Source: Polyangia bacterium (lineage in GTDB: Bacteria > Myxococcota_A > Polyangia > Polyangiales > Sandaracinaceae). Taken from it: a DNA stretch of 51,896 bases. The first letter of the stretch is position 1, and each line of letters begins with the position of its first letter. Under the pieces are notes generated by a model. It had not been told where the DNA came from. It did not search any database and saw only the letters and a list, made by a program, of their open reading frames with translations. This document shows positions 14,424 to 29,037 of the stretch, piece by piece. The DNA lies in contig JAUHXR010000019.1 of assembly GCA_030426845.1 (NCBI GenBank), positions 1 to 51,896 of the forward strand, written 5' to 3'. The translations under genes were made by a program, and so were the position numbers.

Positions 14424-15832
14424 GGCATCTCGTAGAGGCCGCCGGGCGGATGCCACGTCACCGAGCCGGTGGCCGCGGAGGAGCCTGCCCCGAACGAGGT
14501 GCCGGCCGCGGGGATGAAACGCACCGTGAGGGATCCGGCCGTGCTCACGGTCAGCGCGATCGTCACCCGCCACCAGCCTGAGTTGCTGGGATGCGTTGCG
14601 GCGGTCGCCGACAGCGCGGCGAGCCCGCTTTGCGAACGGATCGTCGTGGCGCCCGTCTGGGTGTTGAGCTGGATGAACGCGTAGGCGCTCCCCCGGACGA
14701 CATGCAGCTCCGGGAAGCGAGACGTGATCGCGTCCTTCTTGACCGCGATCCGGACCTCGTACGGGGTCGCCGTGACGAGCGGCCACCCGGCAAAGACCCC
14801 GGTGTAGTACTCGGTCGCGATCGCGCTGTCGTCCGTGCTGAGCTCGGCCGCCGTGCCCCCGAACGGATCGGCCTGACCGCCGACGCTAGACGGACTGCTC
14901 GTCGGGGTCCACGAGGCGAGCACTGGAAGCGTGTCGCGCAGGGTTCCAGGATCGGCCGGCGGCTCCTCGACCGGGAGGACACGAGCGAGCAAGCGCGTCC
15001 GGTACTCGAGGGAGTACATCGGATAGTCGTCGGCGCCCGTGAACGTCGGCGAGAACACGAGCCCATCCGCGCGCATCTCGACCACCTCGGGAAGGCTGCT
15101 CGGATGGTCGTCGTCGACGCGGATCACGCACTTGTACGAGATCGCGTGATCCCACGCGTGCTGGTAGCTCCACGGGATCTGTTCCGTCGCCCGATACGCG
15201 TGCACCGGCGTGCCCGGCTCGTCGAAGGCGACCTCGCCGATCGAGCCGTCGTCCTCGCCCGCCTGAATCCAGTCCTTGTTGACCGCGCTGCGGAAGCGCG
15301 AGATCTGCCCGTAGAGCCCTCCGTCGGCCGGGGCGTCCGCGCTCACCCCCGCGTCGTAGCGGTCGGCCTTGACGCCCGTGCGGGCCATCGCGCCAGGCAG
15401 GATCACGAAGTACGGGCGCGCCGTAGAGGCGTGCGAGGCGGCGTCGAGCTCGGCTGCCGAGGAGAGGCCGAGGATCCGAGCGAGCCGCGGGCCGCCTGCG
15501 CCGACCGTGGCGTCGCGGAAGTCGAGCTGCACCGAGCCGTTGTCGTAGGCGATCGTGTACCAGGCGGGCGTCGTCGGATCGTAGGTGACCGTGTAGGCGC
15601 CCAGCCCGGCCGTGCGATCGTTGAGCTCGTCCTCGAGGACCGTCGCAAGGACCTCGAGCGACGCGATCCGCTTCGGCGTCGCGCCGCGGTGATCGACGGC
15701 GGACGCGACCGCGCGATGCACGAGCTCCCTGTCGGCCGCGATCGAGAGATCGAATGTGCCTCCGTCATCGGTCACCCGAACAGCGAGGGTGCCGAGTCGG
15801 ACGAGGTCGAAGCTGTACTCGAGGACCTCCAT
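14420..15832 (-). CDS. Distal tail (Dit-like) protein
   Basis: A 470-residue beta-rich protein immediately after the tape-measure gene, with which it shares an ATGA start-stop overlap. In siphoviruses this position encodes the distal tail protein joining tube to hub, sometimes with an extra carbohydrate-binding domain; the C-terminal 190 residues here (from about 280) may be such a jelly-roll-like extension. No diagnostic motif was seen, so the call rests on position and composition. Confidence 0.5.
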   Translation of the reverse strand: MEVLEYSFDLVRLGTLAVRVTDDGGTFDLSIAADRELVHRAVASAVDHRGATPKRIASLEVLATVLEDELNDRTAGLGAYTVTYDPTTPAWYTIAYDNGSVQLDFRDATVGAGGPRLARILGLSSAAELDAASHASTARPYFVILPGAMARTGVKADRYDAGVSADAPADGGLYGQISRFRSAVNKDWIQAGEDDGSIGEVAFDEPGTPVHAYRATEQIPWSYQHAWDHAISYKCVIRVDDDHPSSLPEVVEMRADGLVFSPTFTGADDYPMYSLEYRTRLLARVLPVEEPPADPGTLRDTLPVLASWTPTSSPSSVGGQADPFGGTAAELSTDDSAIATEYYTGVFAGWPLVTATPYEVRIAVKKDAITSRFPELHVVRGSAYAFIQLNTQTGATTIRSQSGLAALSATAATHPSNSGWWRVTIALTVSTAGSLTVRFIPAAGTSFGAGSSAATGSVTWHPPGGLYEMP

Positions 15833-17988
15833 CAGGCCGCGCGTCCCCAGCGACGCTGCTCGCTCTCGAGTCCGCGGCGGAACTCGCGGCCGAGCTCGGC
15901 GTAGGTCGCCGCGGTGACCATCGGTCCGCCGAACGTGATGTTGTAGGTGTCGCCACCGCCCCCGCCGCCGTTGTCGTTGCTGGGCTGCGGGCTCGCCGGA
16001 GACGATGCCTCGCCAGTGCCGGCCGCGCTCGACGCGCCCGCGCTCCCGGCCGCCAGACCGGCCGCGCCGCCGAAGGCCAGCGCAGCGACCGCGGTGTATG
16101 CGACGCCAGCGGCCGCGTGGGCCGCGGCACCCGCGTAGTTCATCGACGCCGCGTCGCCGACCGCCTTGGCGAACTCGAAGACCGCGAGCACCGTCGCCTG
16201 AGTGCCGATTGACCAGAGCGTGTCCTCGAGCATCCCCGCGAGGGCCTCGCCGAACGACTGCTCGCCCTTGAGGGCGGCCTTGGCGGCGCCCGCGAAGGCG
16301 TTCGCTACACCGCCGAGGAGAGAGTTCCCCATCTGCGCGGCCACGGCCTTGACGGCCATCCCCGCGGCCTCCATCGCGGAGACCTGCGCGGCGCCCGCGG
16401 CGCGGGCCGCCTCGTTCGCTTCGTTGAGGGCCTCGACGACACCATCGACCCCGCGGCGCCAGGAGTCGTGGAAGGCGGCCGCCGTCTCGGCCGCCGTGCG
16501 CGCGAGCTCCTTCTGGCGATCGATGAACTCCTGTTGCTTCTCGTTCGCCTCGTTGAAGGCGCGCGAGCGTGCGTCCAGGCCGGCATCCCACTGACCGAGC
16601 GCATGGCGGGCCGAGGAGACCGCGGCGGTCATCGCCCGATCCATCTTCGCGGCGACACGGGCGGCCGCCTCGGCGCCCTCCTGGGCCGCGAGCATGTCGG
16701 CGATCCGCTCCTCCGGCGATCGAAGGTCCGTCGAACCGCTGGAGCTCGAGCCGGCCGAGGGCACACGCGGCGGCCCTGTGGGCGCCGGCAACGCGCCGCT
16801 GCCGCCCCGAGGCCCCTCGGCCACCGCCGTACGAAGGTTGCGACTCAGCGTGTTCGAGAAGATGTCGCGAAGGCTCTCTGTCCCGCGAATGGACTGCGCC
16901 TGCTCACGCGTCCGCTGAAGCGCGGCGGCGAAGTCGAAGGTCCCGCTCGTGACCTCGCGCCACCCCTCGCCGATCAGCCGGAAGAAGCCGCGCCACCCTT
17001 CGATGGCGCGCCCGATGGCCACCGTGATCGTCTCGATTCCCGCGAGAGCTGCCGCCGTGAACCCGACGAAGATATCCTCGGTGGTGGAGGTCACGTCGCG
17101 CCAGGCGAGCGTCGCCTCGGACGATCCTGTGATGGCGCGCGCGAGATCGTCGAAGGCTGGGCCCATTTGCCGCGTGATGACGTCGGCGGCGCGCTGACTC
17201 TGGAGGTAGGCGTCTTCGAGGGCCACTCGAAAGCGCTGCACCGCGCCGCCCGCAGTATCGGCACCCGTCTCCATCTCGGCCGCCCGCTCGCGCAGCTGGG
17301 CCATTGCGGCGGAGAACTGCTGCGAACGGCTCGAGCTCGCGTCGACCTCGATCCCGAAGCGGCGCAAGGACTCCGCCGACAGCGACACGAGGCCCTCGCC
17401 GAGCTGCTCCATGGCCTGAGCGGCATCGCCACCGACCGCGGCCGCGTAGTCGGTCGCCACCTCGGCGACGCTCGCGAACTGCTCGTCGGTCAACTCGAGG
17501 CCGGACTGCATAAGCCGGTTGCGCGAGATCGCGAGATCCATCCGCGAGACCATGCCGCCGACCGCCGCCTGCGCCGCGTCCACCGAGCCCTGCATGCGAT
17601 TGAAGACGCCAACGCCGCGCTCCGTGGCGTTCGCAAAGATCGCGGCGGAGGAGGCGGCCGTGCCCAACGCGACCCCCGTGAGACGGGAGGCGGTCGCCAG
17701 CCCCTGCATGTCGATCTGGAAGCGCCGCGCCGCGCCGCCCCCCTTCTTGGCCTCATCCGCGAGCCCATCAGCAGCGTCCGCTGCGGCCCCGACAGCATCG
17801 CCGTACCCCTCGAGCGCGCCAACACCCTCGGCGAAGGCGAGCGCATCGGCGCGCGCGTCGACCATGGCCAACGCGAGCTCGTTGGCCTCGGCCTTGGCCT
17901 CCTCGAGCGCAGCAACGAAGGCGCGGACCTCCGCCTCGCCGTCGCCCCATCGCTCGGCAACGAGAACAACGCGCACCGGATCAGCCAT
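15832..17988 (-). CDS. Tail tape-measure protein
   Basis: A 718-residue, alanine-rich, mostly helical protein with coiled-coil stretches (around residues 20-75, 435-530) and a hydrophobic Gly/Ala segment near 590-660, the usual features of phage tape measures. It follows the tail chaperone frames, as expected for a tail-length determinant, and overlaps the upstream frame by 8 bp. The modest length suggests a fairly short non-contractile tail. Confidence 0.85.
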   Translation of the reverse strand: MADPVRVVLVAERWGDGEAEVRAFVAALEEAKAEANELALAMVDARADALAFAEGVGALEGYGDAVGAAADAADGLADEAKKGGGAARRFQIDMQGLATASRLTGVALGTAASSAAIFANATERGVGVFNRMQGSVDAAQAAVGGMVSRMDLAISRNRLMQSGLELTDEQFASVAEVATDYAAAVGGDAAQAMEQLGEGLVSLSAESLRRFGIEVDASSSRSQQFSAAMAQLRERAAEMETGADTAGGAVQRFRVALEDAYLQSQRAADVITRQMGPAFDDLARAITGSSEATLAWRDVTSTTEDIFVGFTAAALAGIETITVAIGRAIEGWRGFFRLIGEGWREVTSGTFDFAAALQRTREQAQSIRGTESLRDIFSNTLSRNLRTAVAEGPRGGSGALPAPTGPPRVPSAGSSSSGSTDLRSPEERIADMLAAQEGAEAAARVAAKMDRAMTAAVSSARHALGQWDAGLDARSRAFNEANEKQQEFIDRQKELARTAAETAAAFHDSWRRGVDGVVEALNEANEAARAAGAAQVSAMEAAGMAVKAVAAQMGNSLLGGVANAFAGAAKAALKGEQSFGEALAGMLEDTLWSIGTQATVLAVFEFAKAVGDAASMNYAGAAAHAAAGVAYTAVAALAFGGAAGLAAGSAGASSAAGTGEASSPASPQPSNDNGGGGGGDTYNITFGGPMVTAATYAELGREFRRGLESEQRRWGRAA

Positions 17989-18535
17989 GCCGTCGCCGCC
18001 TCCCCGGCCGGCGCTTCATGCTCACGAACCCGCCCGGACGTGACGCCGGACCTGAGCCACCGCCCGGCGGACCGTTCTTGGACTTGAGCCAGCGCTGCAC
18101 GAACCGATCACCGGCGGCGCGCGCGATCCGGAAGGTACGGAGCGCGTCGGTCACGAGCACCGGGGGATCATCCCCGAGGGTCGCCATGATGTAGTGCCCG
18201 TCGGCGTCGACCGAGAGCTCGAGCGCGTGCCTCACGAGCGGCGAGTAGAAGGAGCGCCAAGGACACGTCGGCGGGCGATGGCCGGTCACCGACGCGATCC
18301 TCTCGGCGTGACGCTCCACGGTGGCGGCCGGCGTACCGCCGACGCGGCTCCCCTTGCGGTGACTGCGGCCGTCGCAGTCGCAGCCCCACGCGGCCCGCAG
18401 GACCGCGAGAGCGCGAGGCCCCGCGTTGCCGCGCGACCCCTGCTGCTCCGGCGACAGTCGGCCCATCACGAGCCCGGCGGCGTCTCGTCGCCCTTCCTCT
18501 GCGCCGCACGCGGGGACGATCTCGGGATGTTCCAT
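17981..18535 (-). CDS. Tail assembly chaperone, downstream (T-like) frame
   Basis: This frame overlaps the end of the preceding chaperone gene and is offset by -1 from it. The part after an ATG at 18535 is 184 residues, but the frame is open upstream to the slippery heptamer at 18580-18586. A -1 shift there would fuse the first 147 residues of the upstream protein to 199 residues of this frame (346 in total), as in lambda G-GT. The sequence contains the CPWRSFYSPLVRHALELS stretch and a basic C-terminus, and ends inside the tape-measure start. Independent initiation cannot be excluded. Confidence 0.65.
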   Translation of the reverse strand: MEHPEIVPACGAEEGRRDAAGLVMGRLSPEQQGSRGNAGPRALAVLRAAWGCDCDGRSHRKGSRVGGTPAATVERHAERIASVTGHRPPTCPWRSFYSPLVRHALELSVDADGHYIMATLGDDPPVLVTDALRTFRIARAAGDRFVQRWLKSKNGPPGGGSGPASRPGGFVSMKRRPGRRRRHG

Positions 18536-19020
18536 GCAAGCTGAGAGGAAGCCGGCACTACACAGGAGGCCGGCCTGCCTTTTCCCACGACGGAGAGCGC
18601 CTCGATCGCGCTCCCGATGTCGAACACGTCGCGGTCGCCGAACCCGAGCTCCTCGAGCTCGTCCAGCGCGTCGTCATCGAGCATCTCGCCCGGGCTGTCG
18701 CGGCGCGCCTTCCATGTCGGCGGACTGACGGGCTGACCGTGCTCGTCGACGATGTCGCGGATCTCGGCGACGCCCATCCGGAACGCCATGCGCCAGCGCT
18801 GCCGATCGGTGCCGAGCAGGTCGAGCCGCTCCCGCTGCGAGCGCCTCAGCGCGCGGCAGACGAACAGTGTCGGCTTCGCCTCCCGCGGCAGGCCGGCCTC
18901 GTGGAGGAGGCCGACGTCGCGGAACATCGAATAGGGCACCGCGGCCTCGGGCCGGAGGTGCTTGCGGATCACCGGATCGAAGGAGCGGTAGATCTCGAGT
19001 TGGGCGGGGTTCTTCGTCAT
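18466..19020 (-). CDS. Tail assembly chaperone (G-like)
   Basis: A 184-residue acidic protein between the tail tube and tape-measure genes, the standard position of siphovirus tail chaperones. I use the ATG at 19020 rather than the longer open frame, which runs antisense-like through the tube gene. Codons 146-147 contain the slippery heptamer GGGAAAA; ribosomes that do not slip finish at the TGA at 18466. Family assignment is by position and by the frameshift arrangement. Confidence 0.65.
   Translation of the reverse strand: MTKNPAQLEIYRSFDPVIRKHLRPEAAVPYSMFRDVGLLHEAGLPREAKPTLFVCRALRRSQRERLDLLGTDRQRWRMAFRMGVAEIRDIVDEHGQPVSPPTWKARRDSPGEMLDDDALDELEELGFGDRDVFDIGSAIEALSVVGKGRPASCVVPASSQLAWNIPRSSPRAAQRKGDETPPGS
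18580..18586 (-). other. Programmed -1 frameshift site GGGAAAA
   Basis: On the minus strand the heptamer G-GGA-AAA is in the correct reading phase (X XXY YYZ) in the chaperone gene. Five bases downstream GCCGGC pairs with a second GCCGGC across a 12-nt loop, a plausible stimulatory hairpin. The -1 frame is open from here to the end of the downstream chaperone frame. Confidence 0.7.
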
Positions 19021-21208: not shown

Positions 21209-21565
21209 TCAGTCCTCCCCGCGGGCCGGCAAATTTGCCGGTCGGGTCGCGCTGGCCCCAGTACCCTCGATGACATGGCCATCGAAGACGAAGTCTGCGC
21301 CCTGATTGAATGCCCGGAGTGCGGCGAGGAAGCGGAGCTCTCGGTCGCCCGGATCAACCGCGAGCGTCAGCACACGTGCGTCGCCTGTGGCGTCGTCGTC
21401 CACTTTCCGGGTGGGGCGGGAAGCCTCGAGGACCTCGTCGACCAGATCCGCTACAAGCGCCGCACCGGGCGTGCGCGGTAGGCGATCGAGCTCCGCGCAC
21501 AACTCCTTCGCGAAGGACTCGAAGGCGTCGCATCGGAAGCGCACCTCGTGCCGCGCGCCCATCAC
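21209..21565 (-). CDS. Hypothetical late protein antisense to zinc-ribbon frame
   Basis: A 118-residue frame between the DUF1320 gene, whose stop it overlaps, and the gp10-like gene, which starts 3 bp after its stop. These tight junctions favour a real gene of the late operon. Against it, the plus strand of the same DNA encodes a convincing zinc-ribbon protein (21275-21481). GC at third codon positions is high on both strands, so codon use does not decide. No motif was recognised. Confidence 0.45.
   Translation of the reverse strand: MMGARHEVRFRCDAFESFAKELCAELDRLPRTPGAALVADLVDEVLEASRPTRKVDDDATGDARVLTLAVDPGDRELRFLAALRAFNQGADFVFDGHVIEGTGASATRPANLPARGED
21226..21241. promoter_or_regulatory. AT-cored palindrome, copy 1
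   Basis: CCGGCAAATTTGCCGG is a perfect 16-bp palindrome, 33 bp upstream of the plus-strand zinc-ribbon start. An 18-bp stretch around it (CGGCAAATTTGCCGGTCG, 21227-21244) recurs exactly at 26247-26264 inside the ParB-methyltransferase gene. It may be a protein-binding site; on the minus strand it is also coding in the overlapping frame. Confidence 0.4.
21275..21481 (+). CDS. Zinc-ribbon protein, antisense moron candidate
   Basis: A 68-residue protein with two CxxC knuckles (CPECG near residue 14 and CVACG near 36) about 18 residues apart, then a short amphipathic helix: a classic small zinc ribbon. It is on the plus strand inside the leftward late operon and overlaps a minus-strand frame. 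The palindrome at 21226-21241 lies in its presumed promoter. Small zinc-finger proteins such as Mu Com act in phage post-transcriptional control, but no homology to Com is claimed. Confidence 0.5.
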   Translation: MAIEDEVCALIECPECGEEAELSVARINRERQHTCVACGVVVHFPGGAGSLEDLVDQIRYKRRTGRAR

Positions 21566-21960
21566 ACGAACCCCTCGAGCGAGTCGTCATCGAACGCAGG
21601 ACACGGGCGCTCCGAGCGGCCGCCGCCGGCTGCCGCGCCCTGCGCCTCAGCGACGAGGCCCTGGTAGAACGCGATCACGTCCTCGTACGCCTTGCGGATC
21701 TGGTCGAAGTCCGCGACTGGCCGATTGAGGGTCAGGAGATAGAGCGCGATCTTGACGCAATGGAGCTTGAGGAGGGCGTCGGCCGGCCGCCGCTCCGACG
21801 GGATGCGCGCCATCCACCCCTCGAGCTCGGCCGTGGCGTCATCGAGGGAGGCCGTGATGCGCGCCGCGTCCGGCATGCCACCGCTCGGCGCCGCGAGCTG
21901 ATCGACGAAGCGATCGTCCACGCGGTCGAGAAACTCGGAGCTGGTAGCGAAGGCGGGCAT
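21562..21960 (-). CDS. DUF1320-like head-completion protein (Mu gp36 type)
   Basis: A 132-residue protein like the DUF1320 family (Mu gp36), small helical head-tail connector proteins found just after the major capsid gene. The helical core (roughly residues 25-105) includes a LKLHCVKIALYLL stretch and a YEDVIAFYQGL segment typical of the family. It is the first gene after the major capsid gene, and overlaps the next frame by 4 bp. Confidence 0.7.
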   Translation of the reverse strand: MPAFATSSEFLDRVDDRFVDQLAAPSGGMPDAARITASLDDATAELEGWMARIPSERRPADALLKLHCVKIALYLLTLNRPVADFDQIRKAYEDVIAFYQGLVAEAQGAAAGGGRSERPCPAFDDDSLEGFV

Positions 21961-25907: not shown

Positions 25908-27160
25908 GCCGGCGCCGCCGGGGCCGGCGAGCCCACCCGCTCGCCGAGGCGTTCCCGATGCTCCCGGACGAGGAGCTGACCGCGCTTGCGAGCGACATCG
26001 AGGCCCATGGGCTGCGGCATCCCGTCGTGCTGCTCGACGGCCAGGTCCTCGACGGGCGAAACCGACAGGCGGCGTGCGCGCTCGCGGGGGTCGAGCCGAC
26101 CTACCAGGAGTTCGACCCCGACCTCCACGGCCCGACGCCGGTCGCGTTCGTCCTGAGCGAGAACGTCAGCCGCCGGCACCTCACCGGGTCTCAGCGTGCG
26201 CTCGCCGCCGCTCGCCTCGCGTCCCTCGGAGGCGCCCGACGCCGGTCGGCAAATTTGCCGGTCGAGCTCGCGGGAGCGCTGCGCCCCACTCAGGCCGAGG
26301 CCGCGGGGCGCCTGCGGGTCAGCGAACGGTCGGTGCGACACGCGTGCGAGGTCCTCGAGAAGGCCACCCCTGACGTCGTAGCCGCCGTGGAACGCGGCGA
26401 GCTCGCGGTCAGCGCGGCCGCTCAGCTCGCTCGGCTCTCACACGTCACCCAAGCCGTGGTGCTCGAGGCGGCGATCGAGAAGACGCGCGACCAGGCCTCG
26501 AAGACGATCAACGTCCGCAGCCTCGTCAAGGCCGCCCAGCGCACCAACGACGCGGCGCTGTCGCAATGGGATACGCCGGACGAGCTCGCGCGACGCATGG
26601 CCCGGCTCCTGGGCAGCGGCGGGTGGTTCAAGCGGCGCAAGCAAGTCCTCGAGCCGAGCGCGGGTCACGGCGCGCTCGTGCAGGCCGTGCTCGAGGCCAG
26701 CGGCCAAGGAGGGCGCGCGGCCGCGATCGAGGCCGTCGAGATTGACCCGAAGCGCTGCCGCGCTCTCCGCAAGATCTCGGGGCTCTCGGTTCACCGCGGC
26801 GACTACCTCAAGTCCGATCCGGTCGACAGGTCGTGGCCACTCGGGCCCGACGGCATCATCTCCAACCCGCCCTTCGACAAGGGCGTCGAGATCGCGCACC
26901 TGGCGAAGATGATGGACGAGGCGCGCGAGCGCATCGTCGTCCAGCTCCCGATTCGATCGATGCACGGCGAGGCGCGCTGCGAGCGCGTCTGGTCCCGCGT
27001 CGGCCGCGAGTGGTGGATCCGCGCGGAGGCCCGGCTCGTCGTCCGACCGAAGTACGAGGACGACGGCGGGCGCGACGAGATCGTGGTCGTACTGCTCACG
27101 CGCGAGGCGGGCCCCTGCGACCTCGAATGGTGGGACCTGCGCGAGGAGGCCAACGCGTGA
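25904..27160 (+). CDS. ParB/Srx-domain and DNA methyltransferase fusion
   Basis: A 418-residue two-part protein. Residues 13-100 are a ParB/Srx-like domain with VVLLDGQVLDGRNRQAAC; residues 125-210 contain a helix-turn-helix region; residues 215-400 look like an N6-adenine methyltransferase, with VLEPSAGHG (248-256) as the SAM-binding motif and NPPF (321-324) as the catalytic motif. The GTG start overlaps the Ner stop and has GGAGGG just upstream; its end overlaps the transposase start. Protection of phage DNA or control of transposition are both possible. The target sequence is unknown. Confidence 0.8.
   Translation: MSRRRRGRRAHPLAEAFPMLPDEELTALASDIEAHGLRHPVVLLDGQVLDGRNRQAACALAGVEPTYQEFDPDLHGPTPVAFVLSENVSRRHLTGSQRALAAARLASLGGARRRSANLPVELAGALRPTQAEAAGRLRVSERSVRHACEVLEKATPDVVAAVERGELAVSAAAQLARLSHVTQAVVLEAAIEKTRDQASKTINVRSLVKAAQRTNDAALSQWDTPDELARRMARLLGSGGWFKRRKQVLEPSAGHGALVQAVLEASGQGGRAAAIEAVEIDPKRCRALRKISGLSVHRGDYLKSDPVDRSWPLGPDGIISNPPFDKGVEIAHLAKMMDEARERIVVQLPIRSMHGEARCERVWSRVGREWWIRAEARLVVRPKYEDDGGRDEIVVVLLTREAGPCDLEWWDLREEANA
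26247..26264. promoter_or_regulatory. AT-cored palindrome, copy 2 (inside ParB-MTase gene)
   Basis: Exact second copy of CGGCAAATTTGCCGGTCG, containing the 14-bp palindrome CGGCAAATTTGCCG (26247-26260). It lies in the coding sequence of the ParB-like protein, where parS-like autoregulatory sites are sometimes found. Protein binding is not shown. Confidence 0.35.
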
Positions 27161-29037
27161 CCTCTCGCGCGTACACGGCCGGCGAGCTCGCCCGGCTGCT
27201 CCCCGAGCTCGGCAAGAAGGCGGCGGTCGCGCGGCGCGCGCTTGCGCACGAGTGGCCCTACCGCGAGGAGCAGGGACGCGGCGGGGTCCGGCGCGTGTAC
27301 CCGCTCGACACGCTCCCGGCAGACATCCAGGCGCGGCTTGTCAACGCGCCTCCGACGGGCCCCGACCTCGACGCGCCGGAGGCCCACCTCGAGCTCGCGC
27401 GCGAGCGCATGGAGCTGGTGCGTCAGCTCCTCGAGCGCGTGGACGCTGGCCTGAGCGTGCGGGACGCGGCCGACGTGATCGCGGGCGAGAGCGGCACGCC
27501 GCCGCGCACCCTCCGCCGATGGCTCAACACGGTGCGCGAGCTCGACCGCGTGGAGTGGCTCGGAGCCCTTCTCCCGCGCTGGCAGGGCGGCGGCCGCGCC
27601 GCCCAGTGCAACGAGCGGGTGTGGGAGTACTTCCGCGACGACTACCTCCGCGCAAGCAAGCCCGCCTTCCGCGCGGTCTACCGGCGCACTCGGGACGTAG
27701 CGAAGGAGCAGGGGTGGTCGCCGGTCCCCAGCCTCAAGTCGCTCCGGGCGCGCCTCGAGCGCGAGGTGCCCTATGAGGTCCGCGTGCTGCGCCGCGAGGG
27801 CCGAGATGCCCTCCAGCGCCTCTACCCGGCGCAACAGCGGACGCGTGCCCACCTGCGGGCCATGCAGGCGCTCAACGCAGACGGCCACCGCTTCGACGTG
27901 ATGGTGCGGTGGCCCGACGGCGAGACCTCACGGCCTGCGCTCCTCGCGTTCCAGGACCTCTACTCAGGCAAGATTGTCGGCTGGCGCCTCGACCGGACCG
28001 AGAACGCGGACCTTGTGCGGCTCGCCTTCGCGGACGCGGTGGAGACGTACGGCGTCCCCGAAGACCTCTACCTCGACAACGGGCGTGCGTTCGCCTCGAA
28101 GTGGATCACCGGCGGCGCGCGCTACCGCTTCCGCTTCAAGGTCCGCGAGGAGGAGCCCGTCGGTGTCGTCCGCGCGCTCGGGGTCGAGGTCCACTGGACG
28201 ACGCCCTACCACGGCCAGTCGAAGCCCATCGAGCGCGCGTTCCTGGACCTGTGCGAGTCGATCGCCAAGCACCCGCTCTGCGACGGCGCCTACACCGGGC
28301 GCTCGACCGAGACCAAGCCGCACAACTACGGCAGGCGCACCGTCGAGCTCACGGACTTCCTCGCGCTCGTGACGCGGGAGATCGACGCACACAACGCCCG
28401 GGAGGGCCGGACGTCCGAGGTCTGCGCGGGCCGCTCGTTCGACGAGGTGTTCCTGGAGAGCTACGCGGCCGGCCCCGTCCGGCGCGCGAGCGAGTCGCAG
28501 CGGCGCATGCTCCTGCTCGCTGCCGAGAAGGTACGAGTTCGCCAGGGGACCGCGTGCGTCCACCTCCTCGGCAACCGCTACTGGGCTCCCGCGCTCGCTC
28601 CGCTCCAGGGGCAAGACGTGGTCATCCGGTTCGACCCGCAGCGCCTCAAGAACCCGGCGCATATCTACCGCATCGACGGCGCCTACCTCTGCGCGGCCGA
28701 CTGCCAGAGCGCGGTCGGGTTCGATGACGCGGCCGCGGCACGCGCTCATGCGCGGAGCCGTTCGGCCTTCCTCAAGGCCACGAGGGCGGCCTCCAAAGCC
28801 CAAGAGCAGTTCAGCTCTGCGGAGCTGGCCGAGATGCACCTCGGGCTACGGGCCAAGAAGGCCAAGCCGGCCTCGAACGTCGTGGCCCCGATCTTCGGCA
28901 GCGCGACGCGGCCGCCACCGGCCGAGCCAGCGGACGCCGCACCGGATCGCGACGACGGCGACGACCTTGTCGCCGAGCTCGGACGCGCAGCGCAGAGCTC
29001 CGGGCGACTGCGCTCGAGGCGAGCCTCCAACGAATGA
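27157..29037 (+). CDS. Mu-type transposase A (DDE)
   Basis: A 626-residue MuA-family transposase. The N-terminus (about 1-65) is a Mu-type DNA-binding domain (TAGELARLLPELGKKAAVARRAL), followed by further HTH sequence to about 200, an RNase-H-fold integrase core, and a C-terminal Mu-transposase domain. The DDE triad is Asp247 (HRFDVMV), Asp307 (LYLDNGRAF) and Glu359 (KPIERAFLD). The start GTG overlaps the preceding stop. It should act on the end repeats at 7860-7901 and 41863-41906 with the ATPase B encoded next. Confidence 0.95.
   Translation: MTSRAYTAGELARLLPELGKKAAVARRALAHEWPYREEQGRGGVRRVYPLDTLPADIQARLVNAPPTGPDLDAPEAHLELARERMELVRQLLERVDAGLSVRDAADVIAGESGTPPRTLRRWLNTVRELDRVEWLGALLPRWQGGGRAAQCNERVWEYFRDDYLRASKPAFRAVYRRTRDVAKEQGWSPVPSLKSLRARLEREVPYEVRVLRREGRDALQRLYPAQQRTRAHLRAMQALNADGHRFDVMVRWPDGETSRPALLAFQDLYSGKIVGWRLDRTENADLVRLAFADAVETYGVPEDLYLDNGRAFASKWITGGARYRFRFKVREEEPVGVVRALGVEVHWTTPYHGQSKPIERAFLDLCESIAKHPLCDGAYTGRSTETKPHNYGRRTVELTDFLALVTREIDAHNAREGRTSEVCAGRSFDEVFLESYAAGPVRRASESQRRMLLLAAEKVRVRQGTACVHLLGNRYWAPALAPLQGQDVVIRFDPQRLKNPAHIYRIDGAYLCAADCQSAVGFDDAAAARAHARSRSAFLKATRAASKAQEQFSSAELAEMHLGLRAKKAKPASNVVAPIFGSATRPPPAEPADAAPDRDDGDDLVAELGRAAQSSGRLRSRRASNE

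Follow-up and report, generated by a model that had tools for sequence, protein, structure and literature searches.

The window, a 51,896-nucleotide stretch of DNA from a Polyangia bacterium, carries an overlapping pair of reading frames on its minus strand, directly upstream of a tape measure gene. The order of the segment is a gene of major-tail-protein size, the first frame of the pair (G), the second frame (T) and the tape measure gene (Table 1). G initiates at the ATG at 19020 and runs for 184 codons to the stop codon at 18468-18466. It contains a GGGAAAA heptamer that starts at the third position of a codon (GTG GGA AAA, codons 145 to 147), which is the slippery phase. The -1 frame of this region has stop codons at 18676 and 17983 only, so that it stays open between 18673 and its terminating codon at 17983-17981. 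A sequence-only reading of the stretch had proposed this heptamer, a -1 frame open to 17981, a 346-residue fusion and a GCCGGC hairpin starting five bases past the heptamer. All its coordinates are correct: the phase of the heptamer and the position of the hairpin are as it described, and recomputing the fusion returned the same length.

Table 1. Features of the putative tail chaperone region in the window.
Feature	Coordinates	Strand	Basis
G gene, predicted first tail assembly chaperone (184 aa, frame 0)	18466..19020	-	homologues in other loci; AlphaFold pTM 0.80; weak structural resemblance to proteins annotated as tail assembly chaperones
Slippery heptamer G GGA AAA	18580..18586	-	aligned site canonical in 23/24 loci
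GCCGGC...GCCGGC hairpin, possible stimulator	18551..18574	-	stability not above local background in the window
T region, -1 frame after the predicted slip (199 codons + stop), 346-aa G-T fusion	17981..18580	-	-1 product has homologues at all 23 further loci
Tape measure gene (718 aa)	15832..17988	-	BLASTP E 2e-13 to the gene at the equivalent place in L014
Probable major tail (tube) protein, 422 aa	19056..20324	-	place and size only

Considered in the window by itself, without relatives, the heptamer is suggestive. In the other structural genes nearby, AAA accounts for 1 of 65 Lys codons and GGA for 11 of 248 Gly codons. When codons were permuted among synonymous positions so as to preserve the protein (5000 shuffles), a heptamer landed on the window site in 3.7% of the shuffles and anywhere in the gene in 71%. 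The presence of some heptamer in the gene is thus not rare, and the case for the site rests on its conserved place in relatives.

Relatives were sought with both halves of the predicted product. The G protein matched in 3 of 183 genomes of the order, the window's own genome included, and the T half also matches in both further genomes. A T profile of three rows identified seven viral contigs, a T profile search of 377 genomes of the phylum matched three and revealed another locus in the genome that contains the window, and a ten-row T profile brought the viral contigs to 19 and contributed one Myxococcales bin. Neither the single G protein nor a three-row G profile had a match in the viral contigs, and the three-row T profile had none in the genome contigs. 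The final set comprises 24 loci including the window, with 21 distinct fusion proteins falling into 15 clusters at 60% identity; counts given over 24 loci omit nothing, exact duplicates having been removed for the "distinct" figures only. One member of the set, L023 (G000 contig 413, 46563-46988), is a diverged second chaperone pair in the host genome and also carries GGGAAAA. Searches of PHROGs and Pfam with the window G and T proteins gave no convincing match, only sub-threshold noise, and so did ten members each of alignments A3 and A5 against PHROGs and of A5 against Pfam.

At all 24 loci T is encoded in the -1 frame relative to G, and that frame is open at each of them. An in-phase X XXY YYZ heptamer occupies the aligned site in 23 of the 24 loci (20 of 21 distinct proteins; 14 of 15 clusters), as against 5 of the 4057 other in-phase positions of the same G genes. 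The corresponding binomial value, 3e-40, assumes independent clusters, but the sequences are related and the figure gives an order of size only. The aligned slip codon comes after a G motif resembling GS.I.A.S, and the G stop codon follows the slip site at a distance of 39 to 92 codons. The heptamers are GGGAAAA (10 loci), GGGAAAC (1), CCCTTTC (3), CCCTTTT (1), TTTTTTA (7) and TTTTTTT (1). The exception, L002, has T TTT TGC (five Ts, position 1884) and no canonical heptamer anywhere in G; a "five" motif is among those inferred by the authors of one prediction tool, in the relevant portion of their paper (PMC10885494). The six heptamer sequences are connected by seven changes of type on a tree that shows 5 of its 18 inner branches as unresolved and places two rows at the end of very long branches. 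Given this number of heptamers and of type changes, the codons are not retained merely for the residues that they encode (GK, GN, PF, FL or FF). The sequences indicate that slipperiness, rather than the exact heptamer, is what the family retains. The sequence-only reading had staked its case on persistence of the heptamer and of the open -1 frame in close homologues. The frame persists at every locus and a canonical heptamer at all but one, but GGGAAAA itself is found in only 10 of the 24 and is elsewhere replaced by other X XXY YYZ sequences.

We considered whether T might instead be translated separately, from the ATG at 18535 or by re-initiation at the G stop codon, no fusion being made. 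Two features of the window are compatible with this. The ATG, 15 codons past the slip site, opens a 184-aa ORF in the correct frame, and the G stop overlaps a GTG/ATG pair of the T frame (18469 and 18466). However, no purine-rich Shine-Dalgarno sequence directly precedes the ATG (CTTCCTCTCAGCTTGC), and conservation of T extends upstream from it: the -1 product is already conserved at its opening codons, which read RQAGLLCSAGFLS in the window and RQAALCAAAGYLSG in L002. Moreover, seven of the 24 loci (L017, L026, L028, L029, L030, L033 and L035, three of them identical) have no usable start near the beginning of T, with no ATG, GTG or TTG in the T frame through 150 nt beyond the start of the match. 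The conserved residues ahead of the ATG and the loci devoid of a start make separate translation of T unlikely for the family; it would also leave the conserved heptamers unaccounted for. Overall we regard it as improbable. 

A second alternative places the slip at the level of RNA polymerase, which would generate a mixed mRNA population. It finds a foothold in the homopolymer runs (TTTTTTA or TTTTTTT) present at the site in 8 of the 24 loci. Yet GGGAAAA, GGGAAAC and CCCTTTY form no long homopolymers and occur at the same codon and in the same phase, the X XXY YYZ pattern is a signature of tandem tRNA slippage, and strong stems follow several of the slip sites. These observations make transcriptional slippage a very improbable explanation. 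That the two ORFs are one gene broken by sequencing error or decay, a concern since the window is one contig of a 538-contig draft assembly, is scarcely credible when the same -1 relation between G and T recurs at all 24 loci, which come from many assemblies, and the G stop lies 39 to 92 codons past the site.

In the window the two GCCGGC arms lie at 18574-18569 and 18556-18551. The predicted minimum free energy (MFE) over 45 nt is -14.2 kcal/mol (z -0.95), a stability matched by 57-59% of local windows; for a sequence with a GC content of 72% such a hairpin is ordinary. The hairpin was consequently dropped as independent evidence in the window, where it may nonetheless act as a stimulator. 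Across the family, downstream stability is unusual, taken as a set, for the 11 clusters whose sites are of the GGG or TTT type, L002 included (Fisher p 7e-5; p 4e-5 without the window), a split from the CCC types that was chosen after the data had been seen. With all 15 clusters pooled, p is 0.002; the four CCC clusters, at 0.80-0.97, show no unusual downstream structure. The five-T site of L002 is followed by a stable stem (MFE -21.1 over 45 nt, z -2.61), and the GGGAAAC of L036 (position 3836) by a long stem that is the most stable in the set (MFE -26.3 over 45 nt). Inspection by eye revealed a candidate H-type pseudoknot in L023, from position 1474 onward and right after the heptamer (GCGTG/CACGC and GCGGCA/TGCCGC). 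The same kind of inspection found no upstream Shine-Dalgarno-like motif common to the loci.

The T region itself (17984-18580 in the window) contains four cysteines, C25, C67-x-C69 and C106, that are invariant in all ten rows of alignment A3, which covers the T regions of 10 of the 24 loci. C106 is followed by P-W, the P being nearly invariant in these ten sequences. The cysteines might constitute a metal-binding site in the tail chaperone.

Gene order provides one line of evidence on the identity of the pair. The 718-aa gene downstream from it has no direct match in PHROGs or Pfam and is homologous to the gene in the same place at L014 (Table 1). When the downstream genes of six loci were compared with PHROGs, those of L014 and L036 matched tape measure families (E 4.7e-6 and 2.8e-6), that of L016 matched weakly (E 0.0032) and three had no match. 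On the upstream side, the 422-aa gene has no worthwhile family match in PHROGs or Pfam, and its assignment as a major tail gene comes from its size and place; ORFs of 411-451 aa lie immediately upstream of G in 6 of 7 relatives checked. The AlphaFold model of G (pLDDT 81.5) was compared with BFVD using Foldseek. Named tail assembly chaperones make up 9 of the best 50 rows, all of them weak (best named E 0.014). The best of the 50 rows listed has E 0.0086 and no name, none reaches E <= 0.001, and no convincing match, nor any at that threshold, was found in the PDB. A single VIA-align row for the G model, the only one of its kind (Z 3.3), corresponded to an unrelated protein and was set aside. 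The T model (pTM 0.74) had no match in the PDB. Taken together, the gene order and the weak fold match are consistent with a tail assembly chaperone.

The window also encodes a MuA-type transposase (26833-29037), with matches to PF02914 (1.1e-57), PF09039 and PF09299, and a Mu gp36 family protein (21562-21960). Among 15 genomes or records queried, many of them fragments, PF02914 was found in one, the window's own genome. With MuA in one of 15, the chaperone family may not be confined to Mu-like phages. The only MuA match of the host genome lies in the window, although the second chaperone copy, L023, sits elsewhere.

The slippery heptamer of phage lambda is GGGAAAG. The window resembles the lambda gpG/gpGT system in having two overlapping ORFs ahead of the tape measure gene and a predicted -1 shift on a heptamer of the same type. 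It differs in the four conserved cysteines of its T part, and no sequence similarity to lambda was detected in PHROGs, Pfam or a phage collection. The section of a review concerned with these genes treats lambda G/GT as the type case, in which -1 shifting occurs at a low level and the molar ratio is 30:1 (PMC5009743).

Among Mu-like phages, a passage on PaMx73 (core ORFs 35/36), a siphophage of the D3112 group that infects Pseudomonas aeruginosa, predicts that the gene preceding putative tail genes has a -1 site, T TTT TTC, which lies 43 codons ahead of the stop (PMC4378225). The same T TTT TTC site is present in orf42 of D3112 (orf42/orf43 pair). The D3112 group, which are siphophages, and the prophage in the window are alike in being transposable phages with a predicted -1 site before the tail genes. 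They differ in the heptamer and in the length of the -1 extension (about 85 codons in D3112 versus 199 in the window), and tblastn of the window G protein found no match in a phage collection that includes D3112. The tail chaperone genes of Mu have the same role and place as those proposed for the window pair and are likewise frameshifted; the portions of three papers dealing with Mu describe a -2 shift (PMC5009743, PMC2628397, PMC4378225), whereas the shift in the window would be -1. A search of open-licence PMC papers found none joining tail assembly chaperone, slippery site and myxococc-; in the same source, the sole phage match for CCCTTT with frameshift and tail assembly was a terminator table in an SPP1 paper. 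The sequence-only reading had portrayed the locus as a copy of the lambda G/GT arrangement in a Mu-like phage. The conserved site, the gene order, MuA and the weak fold match favor that description, but the hairpin has proved unexceptional in the window and, from the passage on PaMx73, the arrangement is already in print (PMC4378225). The novelty lies in the protein family and in the way its slip site has turned over, lambda-type arrangements in Mu-like phages having been predicted in print before.

We consider it highly likely that the overlapping pair represents G and T of a lambda-like tail assembly chaperone and that a ribosomal -1 slip yields the 346-aa G-T protein. Most ribosomes would read G and terminate at 18468-18466, releasing the 184-aa protein. 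A minority, whose peptidyl- and aminoacyl-tRNAs sit on GGA AAA, would shift one base back to GGG AAA and read on in the -1 frame as far as 17983, making G-T. By analogy with lambda, the tape measure protein would be coated by many copies of G and few of G-T, which would also bring in the tail tube protein, and the ratio of G to G-T would set correct assembly. To judge from the sequence, then, a one-base slip of the ribosome very probably gives this Mu-like prophage a long as well as a short form of a tail-helper protein.

For the family as a whole, the balance of the evidence leans towards a tail chaperone family absent from Pfam and PHROGs, distributed among Myxococcota prophages and environmental phage contigs. 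Its slip site would stay at one position of the protein through repeated replacements of the heptamer (GGGAAAA/C, CCCTTTC/T, TTTTTTA/T and a bare T5), with stable stems accompanying the GGG and TTT types as a set and not the CCC types. The mechanism itself is textbook. The analysis puts a name to a probable tail chaperone pair overlooked by family libraries and shows that its -1 site is conserved in place. If the picture of repeated replacement is correct, the family would offer a natural series on how a recoding signal can be rebuilt without functional loss. Its homologous sites, with varied heptamers and with or without stems, are useful material for testing the determinants of frameshift efficiency in GC-rich hosts.
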